Below, piece by piece: positions 3,915 to 7,910 of a DNA stretch of 64,000 nt (its first letter is position 1; the number at the start of each line of letters is the position of its first letter). Source of the stretch: an uncultured Clostridia bacterium (GTDB lineage: Bacteria > Bacillota > Clostridia > Christensenellales > Pumilibacteraceae); NCBI GenBank assembly GCA_948440265.1, contig CAOJOK010000002.1:124001-188000 (forward strand). The letters are read 5' to 3'. Under the pieces are notes generated by a model. The model searched no databases and was not told the origin of the DNA. It saw only the letters and a program-made list of their open reading frames with translations. The translations under genes were made by a program, and so were the position numbers.

Positions 3915-5114
3915 ATGAACATACAAATAAACAAATTTACAAAAAACACATTCCAATTCTTTTTGAAAACAGTGGATGGATGGCTATCGAAAGACAAGAA
4001 TGATAGACACATTAACATAGAATTTAAAGATGAAACGCCTTTCCCAGAAAATATTCTTCCTATTGCAGGAATAATTGATTGGTTAAAGTGTAACGGATTT
4101 ATTGTTAATGTTCGTTTTTATAAGGATTCAAAATTACATCATTGTGGTTTAAATTTGCCATATACCGTTGAAAAAAATTCCTATGAACTGCTATCGCCGA
4201 TGTTTAAAGCGTGGAAATATAGTAGCCCAGAAGAAGTATATAAAATTGTCTCTAGTCTAGTTGATAATCTTAATAAAACTATAATATGCGCAAAGGGAGT
4301 TGTTGAGGCTTTTGAGTGGACTATAAATGAGATTATGGATAACGTTATTCAACATTCACAGTCTCAATTTGGATATATTATGTGTACAGCAACAAATAAT
4401 TCACATATTTCAGTGGCAATATATGACAATGGCATCGGTATTTTACAATCTTTTAGGGGTAGCAAGTATAGGTTAAGAACGGCATTTGATGCTATTCAAA
4501 CCGCAATTAGAGAAAACACTACTCGTGACCCTAAAATAGGACAAGGAAACGGAATGTGGGGTATGACTAAAATTGTAAATAATAATCGAGGCTCACTTAA
4601 CCATAATTTCAAGCGGAGCTCGTATAACCATAAATCAAAACAATGATATGGAGAAACAACTTCTAGAAACTTATAAAATTGGTAATTTAAGAAATCCATA
4701 TTTTGTCGGCACATTGGTAGATTTTCAATTTTTATGCAACAATGAAATTGCTCTTTCGGATATATTTGGCGAGAATTACGCATACACTAATCTTACTTTG
4801 GAAAACCTTGAAGATGAGAAAAACCGAATACATATTTTAATTTCTGATTTTAGCCTAGGTTGTGCAACACGCATTGCTGGAGCAAATGCGAGAACAATAG
4901 TACAAAATTATATGACGCAATCCGACTATAAACAAGTTGTTGTATTGGATTTTAAAGATGTAGGAATTATTGCCTCGTCTTTTGCAGATGAATTTATAGG
5001 AAAACTTATACAGTAGGATTTATACAGTTTAATAATTTAATACGTATTGTAAATGTAAGTCGTGATAATATGGCTATAATAAATCGTTCTGTTATGCAAA
5101 GAATGATAGAATAA
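3915..5114 (+). pseudogene. GHKL ATPase + C-terminal STAS-like (DUF4325) protein, frameshifted twice
   Basis: ORF 3915-4646 has HATPase motifs (NEIMDNVIQHSQ, YDNGIGI, GQGNGMWGM). After about 4590 the reading continues in the next frame as LTIISSGARITINQNN-MEKQLLET...VVLDFKDVGIIASSFADEFIGKLI. After about 5008 it returns to the first frame as VGFIQFNNLIRIVNVSRDNMAIINRSVMQRMIE* ending at 5114. Confidence 0.8.
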
Positions 5115-5144: not shown

Positions 5145-6326
5145 TCATTTTCTGCCTTTGGCGCGATTATGTTCTATGCAAAGCATTTGACAGTTTTCGA
5201 CGGTGGTTTTGCCGCCGTCAATCCACGGAGTTATATGGTCGGCGTCCATTTTGCATAATTCGTAGTGCGTTCTTTCTCTATGCTCGGCAACGCAAAAAGG
5301 ACAAATACCGCCTTGCTTTTCGTATACAGTAGCTTTTTGCCAATCCTCAAATTGTCGCAAATTCAAGTGATTTAGTTTTCTGTCGAACACATATTCATAT
5401 ATGCCCGATTTGTTTACTACCTCGTCATCGGCATATAGCGCGGCTACTTTGTCTTGCAATTCTTTTAGATTATAATTATTTTCGTGATAAGCGTTATACA
5501 AAATGCCCCATTCCACCTTGTCCATACCTTTGCGCCAAACGGGGAATAGAGTTTTGACCCACTCTATAACGCTTTTGAAATACTCCCACAAATACAAAGC
5601 GTTTTCTAGGTCTTTGTTTTCCGCCATATATTTTTCAAGCAGTTTAGTATCGGATAGGTTGTTTATGTACCATCGCAAGACTTTTTCAAGTCCGCCTTGT
5701 CTGTTCCAATTATTATTCGACGGCAAAGACATTAAAGGGTGCGGCTTTGTAGCCAATGCCTGCGCGACATTATTGTTGCTTTTGGAAAAATATCGCTTTG
5801 CGTCGGTTATCCAACTGCCGCTGTATTGCGCGTTGCGAATTTCTTGCTCGCTCAATTTTTCGCCCGCGATATTGATAGTTTCAAACCACCGCAAGCGGTC
5901 GGTGTCCGCGCCGTCGCATACATAGACGAGTAGTGGATAGTTCAATATGCGTTCTTTCTCGTGAGGTAACAACTGACTGAATGTGCGAGCGTGCGGATTT
6001 CCGAATAAGTTCGACATAGAGTAACCTTTTGCCGGATTATCCAAACGAACAAATTCACAAATGGAAATAGTACGCTGTTGCCCGTCTAAAATCTCGAAAG
6101 TCCCGTCGTCGTTTTTTACCCAATACATAATCCCGAGCGGAAAATTATGCGAAACAGTATCTATCACGGCGTTGCGCTTTTTATCGTCGTACACATAGTT
6201 GCGCTGATATTTCGGGCGTATGTTTAACTTACCACCATAACCGTAAATGCCTTCTTCCTTGTCAGAATTATCGACATAATCTTGCACTATGTCGCTTACG
6301 CTGATTTTCAAAGGTTCAATTTTCAT
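5145..6326 (-). CDS. DUF262 (ParB-like) + HNH endonuclease protein
   Basis: N-term DUF262 with FEILDGQQRTISI; C-term Zn-HNH CPFC...DADHITPWIDGGKTTVENCQMLCIEHNRAKG. Confidence 0.85.
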   Translation of the reverse strand: MKIEPLKISVSDIVQDYVDNSDKEEGIYGYGGKLNIRPKYQRNYVYDDKKRNAVIDTVSHNFPLGIMYWVKNDDGTFEILDGQQRTISICEFVRLDNPAKGYSMSNLFGNPHARTFSQLLPHEKERILNYPLLVYVCDGADTDRLRWFETINIAGEKLSEQEIRNAQYSGSWITDAKRYFSKSNNNVAQALATKPHPLMSLPSNNNWNRQGGLEKVLRWYINNLSDTKLLEKYMAENKDLENALYLWEYFKSVIEWVKTLFPVWRKGMDKVEWGILYNAYHENNYNLKELQDKVAALYADDEVVNKSGIYEYVFDRKLNHLNLRQFEDWQKATVYEKQGGICPFCVAEHRERTHYELCKMDADHITPWIDGGKTTVENCQMLCIEHNRAKGRK

Positions 6327-7398
6327 TGTGAACTCCTTCGACTTTTTTGTTTTTGATTATGTATCTGAAATAGATTGCTTTACTGTCTATCATTGATAAA
6401 TATTTCCCCGCTTTTTTGGTTTCTTCATTGTGTAATATACTGTAACGCCCTATACCGTCAATTATTTCAAACTGTTCGGGATTGTATTTATCCATAAAGG
6501 TTATAGGTACGCCCATATATCCGTCGTAATCATAAGGAATTTCGGCGGTTTTATTTACATTGATTGCATCATAGTTATCGTATTTCGGATATTCTTCGGG
6601 CGTGTATTTTTTATATAGCTGTAAATCCTCGTGCCTTTGCGGATAGTCTAAATTAGTGTACCAACGTATGCCTTTAACGCGAATAAACTTTTTCCCATTT
6701 TTGTCTATTCTGCAATTTGTCGCATTAAGTGGGTAACTATACGGCACTTGAAATTCTCTGTCGCCGCTATGTATGCTTACACCAAGCCACATTCTATTTT
6801 GCATTAAGAGAGGAAATATCTCTTTATATGTAAGAGCATTTTGATTGCCTATAATTATAAACTTTTTCTCGTGCTTTATGAGTTGCGCCACATATTCGCG
6901 GAATAAAGAAAACGGCGGATTTGTAATAACTATATCCGCTTGTTTTAATAATTCGATACATTCGTCGGAGCGAAAATCGCCGTTGCCATCAAGCACGGAA
7001 AACGTGTTTTCTTTGTTTTTAAGTAAGTAATCAATATCGCGCACATCGGTAACGCCGTCGCCGTTATAATCGCCCACTTCGCATATTTCTATTTTGTATG
7101 CTTTTCGGTTCTTATTCGGAACAGTTATTCCTTTATCCAAAAACGACATTTGCGTATAGGCAATAGGAGAATTATCGTAACTTGTGCAAATAAGTTTTTT
7201 AAGTTTTAAATCGTTAAAACGCGTTGCAAAGTAATAGAAAAAGTTGCTCTCGTAAGGATCATCGCAATTACAAAGAATAGTTTTGCCGATAAAGTAATCG
7301 GTATAATGACACATCTCGTTTTCAATGTCGCTTAATTGAGTATAGAACTCGTCGTTTTTTGCACCGCCAGCTTTTCTCAAACTCGCGTTTTTCGCCAT
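6316..7398 (-). CDS. EcoRI-type adenine-specific DNA methyltransferase
   Basis: MAKNASLRKAGGAKNDEFYTQLSDIENEM...; catalytic NPPF in ADIVITNPPFSLFREYVAQL; overlaps the downstream DUF262-HNH gene by 11 nt. The ORF track start at 7479 is a TTG; ATG at 7398 is preferred. Confidence 0.85.
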   Translation of the reverse strand: MAKNASLRKAGGAKNDEFYTQLSDIENEMCHYTDYFIGKTILCNCDDPYESNFFYYFATRFNDLKLKKLICTSYDNSPIAYTQMSFLDKGITVPNKNRKAYKIEICEVGDYNGDGVTDVRDIDYLLKNKENTFSVLDGNGDFRSDECIELLKQADIVITNPPFSLFREYVAQLIKHEKKFIIIGNQNALTYKEIFPLLMQNRMWLGVSIHSGDREFQVPYSYPLNATNCRIDKNGKKFIRVKGIRWYTNLDYPQRHEDLQLYKKYTPEEYPKYDNYDAINVNKTAEIPYDYDGYMGVPITFMDKYNPEQFEIIDGIGRYSILHNEETKKAGKYLSMIDSKAIYFRYIIKNKKVEGVHNEN

Positions 7399-7414: not shown

Positions 7415-7446
7415 ATAAAAAAGTGCGCCAGCCGAAGCCAACGCAC
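7415..7446 (-). terminator. intrinsic-terminator-like hairpin in the leader of the EcoRI-type MTase (possible attenuator)
   Basis: Minus strand GTGCGTTGGC-TTCG-GCTGGCGCAC (10-bp stem with G-U pairs, UUCG loop; 7423-7446) followed by TTTTTTATTTTA; ends about 20 nt before the MTase ATG. Confidence 0.7.
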
Positions 7447-7835: not shown

Positions 7836-7910
7836 TGGTGGGCAATAAGGGATTCGAACCCCTGACTTCTTCCATGTGAAGGAAGCACTCTCCCGCTGAG
7901 TTAATTGCCC
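7836..7910 (-). tRNA. tRNA-Val (anticodon CAC), CCA encoded
   Basis: GGGCAAT TA ACTC AGCGGGA GAGT G CTTCC TTCACAT GGAAG AAGTC AGGGG TTCGAAC CCCTT ATTGCCC A CCA; full cloverleaf. Confidence 0.95.

Follow-up and report, generated by a model that had tools for sequence, protein, structure and literature searches.

An EcoRI-family methyltransferase paired with a DUF262-HNH nuclease: a probable mobile restriction-modification module with an exchangeable methyltransferase segment

The window (the whole stretch of 64,000 nucleotides that was analysed, from an uncultured Clostridia bacterium) carries on its reverse strand two overlapping genes, encoding an EcoRI-family DNA methyltransferase (MTase) and a DUF262-HNH protein, referred to below as the nuclease. 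The features of the locus are as follows.

6316..7398, reverse strand: EcoRI-family adenine-N6 DNA MTase (PF13651), 360 aa, first gene of the operon
6910..6921, reverse strand: NPPF, catalytic motif IV of the MTase, residues 160-163, intact in the sequence
6646..6795, reverse strand: MTase residues 202-251, RMWLGVSIHSGDREF...GIRWYTNLD, probable target-recognition segment, swappable, falling into discrete classes
6316..6326, reverse strand: overlap of both coding regions, 11 nt, read from the sequence
5145..6326, reverse strand: DUF262 domain (ParB/Srx-like, GmrSD_N), helical middle and C-terminal Zn-HNH nuclease, 393 aa, second gene of the operon
6072..6086, reverse strand: DGQQR nucleotide motif of the DUF262 domain, residues 81-85, intact in the sequence
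5166..5303, reverse strand: Zn-HNH nuclease core, residues 342-387, intact (C342xxC345, D363 H364, N378, C383, N387)
7836..7910, reverse strand: tRNA-Val(CAC), adjoining the low-GC stretch (ARAGORN)

The MTase reading frame extends from an ATG at 7398 to a stop codon at 6316-6318 and that of the nuclease from an ATG at 6326 to its end at 5145, with an AGGAG for the nuclease gene just upstream of its ATG, inside the 3′ end of the MTase gene. The initial annotation described two intact genes overlapping by 11 nt and took them for one operon; the ORF coordinates, domain matches and motifs bear out the anatomy, and the overlap, the AGGAG within the first gene and a pairing conserved across phyla support the operon. 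Given the order MTase then nuclease and the tight overlap, protection would be translated first. About 25 nt before the start of the MTase gene, in the same orientation, is a terminator-like hairpin followed by a T run (7423-7446, reverse strand), which may act as an attenuator or simply stop transcription coming from the tRNA side.

The module is carried by a low-GC stretch at ~3.0-8.0 kb, with a GC content of about 0.31-0.41 against 0.45-0.52 in the flanks; no attachment repeats were found at the tRNA-Val. In G629, a genome of the same genus, the island genes are absent beside tldD and a pair 39-41% identical to that of the window lies on another contig, the pattern that repeated horizontal gain would produce. 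Convergent with the module are tandem genes encoding a GHKL-type ATPase and a DUF4325 (STAS-like) protein (3915-5016, forward strand), both of which show partial matches to the PADLOC DrmA model and possibly form a separate regulatory or defence pair. The genome of the window also encodes a second, unrelated DUF262 protein of 505 aa (L002, G000:C9:8376-8861).

The MTase matches PF13651 over 345/345 model positions (E 1.2e-146, profile search) and is ~45% identical to a copy of M.EcoRI on an E. coli plasmid. Its AF2 model (pLDDT 87) retrieved generic methyltransferases only in a structure search, and a sequence search of the PDB with the MTase found no solved M.EcoRI-family structure. Across 150 distinct MTase-nuclease pairs, N160, P162 and F163 of the NPPF motif are invariant (150/150) and P161 is present in 149/150. 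The nuclease matches PF03235 (GmrSD_N; E 5.4e-20) and, at its C-terminus, PF01844 HNH (E 6e-6), with no match to DUF1524 in the family scan. Foldseek with its AF2 model (mean pLDDT 90.7) gave BrxU, a type IV enzyme of the GmrSD family, as the sole PDB match at E < 0.001; weaker matches were to CTP-bound ParB and SspE and, for the C-terminus, to the Geobacter HNH nicking enzyme (Gme HNH). The catalytic residues are again near-invariant in the 150 pairs: 149 carry the full DGQQR and one has Q83L, and C342, C345, H364, N378 and C383 are each found in 149, D363 in 145 and N387 in 143. In SspE, the arginine of DGQQR couples sensing of the mark to GTP hydrolysis and nicking, and is essential for both of the latter (PMC13251355). 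By homology, the HNH domain of the nuclease described here is therefore likely to be gated by NTP, and use of NTP by this protein is predicted from the near-invariant DGQQR.

The initial annotation suggested that an EcoRI-type MTase may here have a DUF262-HNH protein as its nuclease, and proposed conserved co-occurrence across genomes as a check; such co-occurrence was found, and it supports the partnership. Full-length nuclease relatives (530 bits or more; the next scores are 293, from a broken copy, and 96) were present in 7 of the 399 genomes of the phylum sample, and a full-length MTase in the same seven, adjacent to the nuclease. Among the 31 nearest relatives of the window genome, six carry the nuclease, with the MTase adjacent in 6/6. 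When 84,980 species were scanned with one genome per species and the best 80 MTase relatives were taken, a DUF262-HNH gene lay downstream on the same strand in 77, and one of the three exceptions stops at a contig border; these 80 MTases span Bacillota, Bacteroidota, Pseudomonadota, Patescibacteria, Spirochaetota and others. In all, the species genomes contain at least 580 MTase loci. On viral contigs, the MTase stands beside 78 of 80 nuclease loci, the other two being cut by the contig end just upstream, and annotated phage records with a full-length nuclease are paired in 4/4 cases. The species and viral samples were ranked by similarity to the window, and their proportions are therefore not valid for the whole family. 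The genes of the distinct pairs share strand and order and overlap or lie at most 30 nt apart in 133/150, a 4-nt overlap being the commonest arrangement (n=51), and the distances of MTases and nucleases are correlated (r 0.50, permutation maximum 0.14, 150 pairs). No recurrent accessory gene was found between MTase and nuclease, the inserts consisting of tandem MTases, a REP-type transposase and unrelated genes, and no fusion of the two proteins, which would have spoken for a complex, was found among the loci examined. Tandem diverged EcoRI-type MTases occur at L090:4728-7035, L101:388-2553 and L158:1803-4011, followed by one DUF262-HNH gene in the last two. The module has been found on plasmids, phages and islands in several phyla.

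The linkage runs in one direction: the nuclease is essentially never seen without the MTase, and the MTase can stand alone. On the viral contigs, 53 of 80 MTase loci have the nuclease beside them, three have an EcoRI-like nuclease and 24 have neither; a few of these 24 end near a contig border and the rest lie among phage genes (ligase, helicase, further MTases), as expected of phage self-protection. No third kind of nuclease was seen beside the solitary MTases of the viral loci. A 702-aa protein of a Lachnospiraceae phage (L018:609-2717) joins an EcoRI-type m6A MTase to a C5-cytosine MTase and has no adjacent nuclease gene. Larger deletions, of which there are few cases, affect the nuclease gene and leave the neighbouring MTase intact (L226, L271, L291 and L069, with a remnant in L239), and no larger deletion in the MTase beside an intact nuclease was seen among the loci compared. 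A general asymmetry in the decay of the two reading frames was considered and rejected, as single frameshifts and stops are about equally frequent in each and the asymmetry is limited to larger deletions. In one 166-kb viral contig (L180:2800-3630), an in-frame stop interrupts the MTase next to an intact nuclease, representing either a pseudogene or a recoded stop. That the nuclease needs the MTase, and not vice versa, points to restriction-modification rather than to a type IV system, and favours an MTase that either protects the DNA or supplies marks needed by the nuclease.

The initial annotation stated that EcoRI-type MTases normally pair with PD-(D/E)xK enzymes. This is reversed among the relatives sampled, where DUF262-HNH is the common partner and EcoRI a rare one; in the plasmid collection, EcoRI is matched by 19 records and the nuclease (at least 80% of its length) by 43. 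In the unrooted MTase tree, the EcoRI-paired MTases form two lineages nested among the DUF262-paired ones, and in a representative of one of these lineages (L278) the EcoRI gene lies downstream of the MTase, in the slot of the DUF262-HNH gene. From this unrooted tree, we infer that EcoRI took the place of the DUF262-HNH protein. The EcoRI system and the module described here share a PF13651 MTase and are often found on small mobile plasmids, but EcoRI is a PD-(D/E)xK enzyme devoid of an NTP domain whereas the neighbour here is a DUF262-HNH protein, and the genes run from nuclease to MTase in E. coli and Klebsiella and from MTase to nuclease here. The systems also differ in that the EcoRI-paired MTases retain one recognition class; the segment of the window MTase is 44% identical to that class and belongs to a different one. 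On the 265-kb contig of the window, GAATTC shows no marked depletion, with 71 occurrences observed against 90.5 expected (rank 38 of 64). Sequences strongly depleted on the same contig (G000 C2) are ATTAAT, CTTAAG, CTCGAG, CTCAAG/CTTGAG, CTATAG and CTCTTC/GAAGAG, with ratios of 0.12-0.25 under a maximal-order Markov model; CTTAAG, CTCGAG and CTCAAG/CTTGAG all conform to CTYRAG.

The segment in question corresponds to residues 182-231 of M.EcoRI and 202-251 of the window MTase, and follows NPPF, as does the target-recognition part of MTases of this motif order. From its position and its behaviour in EcoRI-paired MTases, it is the probable target-recognition part. The main EcoRI-paired lineage is 82-94% identical to M.EcoRI in the segment and 60-81% outside it. 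The same segment class occurs in the separate EcoRI lineage (60% inside the segment, 52% outside), compared with averages of 38% inside and 52% outside for DUF262-paired MTases. Three of the segment classes in the 150 DUF262 pairs have 48, 37 and 21 members, the 48 being those of the window's class, and the EcoRI class is found in six. Similarity in the segment is almost unrelated to similarity elsewhere in the MTase (r 0.16) and, once the latter is controlled for, unrelated to similarity of the nuclease (partial r 0.01, permutation sd 0.04).

Individual loci show how the segment varies next to a nearly constant nuclease. L023 and L055, which come from different studies, encode nucleases that are 98% identical, with six conservative differences in 360, and MTases that are 95-100% identical over residues 40-120, with values of only 20-25% and, in a second comparison, 29% for the segment; in L034 and L074, the nucleases are 94% identical and the segments 28%, one belonging to the class of the window and the other to the EcoRI class. 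Among 29 disjoint pairs of nucleases at least 80% identical, the MTase segments differ (<50% identity) in 12 and are the same (60% or more) in 17, with no intermediate cases, and the MTases of swapped and unswapped pairs differ chiefly in the segment. The members of the 12 swapped pairs all keep NPPF and HNH, and all but one keep DGQQR. No nuclease column clearly tracks the segment class in the 150 pairs. A search for contacts between MTase and nuclease by distance correlations and APC-corrected mutual information was unconvincing, at an effective sequence number of ~38; the top pairs avoid the segment and cluster in MTase residues 20-60 and 260-300, and are too weak for a claim about an interface. 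The exchange of segment classes independently of phylogeny beside an unchanged nuclease, as read from these alignments, is new here.

Considering the gene anatomy, the near-invariant motifs, the one-directional linkage and the mobility observed across these loci, we consider it likely that they represent a mobile two-gene restriction-modification module with the DUF262-HNH protein as restriction nuclease and the MTase as protection; catalysis and restriction of phages are predicted on the basis of sequence. The EcoRI-family MTase would protect the cell by methylating an adenine within a short DNA sequence, the ParB-like domain of the nuclease would bind and probably hydrolyse NTP, thereby gating the HNH domain, and the latter would nick or cut DNA that lacks the mark. 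Of the self/non-self restriction driven by NTP put forward in the initial annotation, restriction fits the pairing, and the NTP part would follow from DGQQR. It is quite possible, if somewhat short of probable, that the nuclease does not read the target alone and obtains it either through a complex with the MTase, following type I/ISP logic, or from the marks that the MTase makes, because the recognition segment has been exchanged repeatedly while the nuclease stayed practically the same. Where the segment determines the target of the MTase, an independently reading type II nuclease left unchanged through such swaps would damage its own cell; the simplest account of the swaps is therefore that the MTase aims the nuclease in a complex or that the nuclease reads the mark and not the sequence. 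The identification of the segment as the recognition part is the weakest step of this argument for shared specificity. With rather more doubt, it can be proposed that a stand-alone MTase alone sets the target of the nuclease through ~50 residues and that DUF262-HNH, as the ancestral partner or the most frequent one, was replaced by EcoRI on two occasions.

These readings have to be weighed against a classical type II system, in which the DUF262-HNH nuclease would itself recognise the sequence of the MTase and cut it when unmethylated, as EcoRI does. The MTase belongs to the family of M.EcoRI, PADLOC assigns both proteins to type II and the one-way dependence fits, but nucleases 94-98% identical are found beside MTases with segments only 28-29% identical, and no column of the nuclease clearly follows the segment class, so that this explanation appears unlikely on balance. 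A licensing mechanism resembling that of SspE, with DUF262 sensing the m6A made by the MTase and the NTPase licensing HNH against unmarked DNA, would draw on the shared domain logic and the role of the DGQQR arginine in SspE (PMC13251355); a nuclease useless without its MTase would match the linkage, and independence from any particular site would fit the exchange of segments. However, SspE is ~560-770 aa long in solved chains and reads phosphorothioate in sequence context, only the domains being shared, and we regard this mechanism as decidedly unlikely.

Two further explanations can be nearly dismissed. A type IV activity, in which the nuclease would attack modified DNA and the MTase be incidental, is suggested by characterised DUF262 proteins such as GmrSD and BrxU, which are modification-dependent (PMC12707154), but is highly improbable because a nuclease attacking m6A in that motif would kill its own cell beside an intact m6A MTase, practically the only place where it is found. 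The effector sensing the modification made by its own MTase, which the initial annotation offered as an alternative, is likewise disfavoured, the nuclease never having been found without the MTase. That the two genes are mere neighbours in a defence island, with no joint function, could be argued from the low-GC stretch at a tRNA gene and the presence of other accessory genes, but is next to incredible in view of 150 distinct loci across phyla paired on the same strand and in the same order, mostly overlapping, and of a distance correlation far above its permutation maximum (r 0.50 versus 0.14).

Regarding the literature, a pair in Prevotella intermedia comprises M.Pin25611FORF1345P (REBASE name), which shares 51% identity with M.EcoRI, and behind it a nuclease gene of 1104 bp, Pin25611FORF1345P; the predicted GAATTC was unmethylated and the pair was for that reason called inactive (PMC5608340), which counts against the restriction-modification reading. 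It resembles the module of the window in order and size and, judged on these features rather than from the paper, its nuclease would be a DUF262-HNH protein; a different recognition segment could explain the absence of GAATTC methylation. In the part consulted of a survey of the GmrSD family, type I genes are described in the neighbourhood and an EcoRI-type MTase is not reported (PMC4619093). A text search covering mostly open-access papers turned up no account of an EcoRI-type MTase combined with a DUF262 nuclease. The PADLOC models REase_II PDLC03418 (376 bits) and MTase_II PDLC03297 match the window nuclease and MTase over their full length, and all 61 nuclease relatives match REase_II, which is an assignment at the level of a database. 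The system is thus of a known kind and annotated by a pipeline, and its nuclease class and exchange behaviour appear to be undescribed. Among the relatives sampled, the usual nuclease of the MTase family of the best-known restriction enzyme is a ParB-fold NTPase joined to HNH, a class known so far from modification-dependent enzymes. If the nuclease borrows the target of the MTase, such modules would be natural reprogrammable restriction systems and would help to explain how DUF262 effectors are aimed.

Compared with established systems, the module resembles type II restriction-modification in that MTase and nuclease are encoded by separate but linked genes, the nuclease not found without the MTase and the MTase able to occur alone, and follows type I/ISP logic in the exchange of a segment beside a constant nuclease, if it is indeed the segment that recognises the target. 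With GmrSD and BrxU (DUF262 and DUF1524), of which BrxU is the best fold match, it shares a DGQQR-bearing DUF262 domain at the N-terminus and a His-Me finger nuclease at the C-terminus; it differs from them in its zinc HNH (PF01844) in place of DUF1524, in its length of 393 aa versus ~580 aa and in the genetic tie of the nuclease to an MTase, and probably spares modified DNA instead of attacking it. No sspBCD or dnd-like phosphorothioation genes were found among the nearest neighbour genes scanned against families. SspE likewise combines DUF262 with a C-terminal HNH as the effector of a modification system (PMC13251355), whereas the protein described here is much shorter and is coupled to base methylation by one MTase rather than to phosphorothioation by SspABCD.
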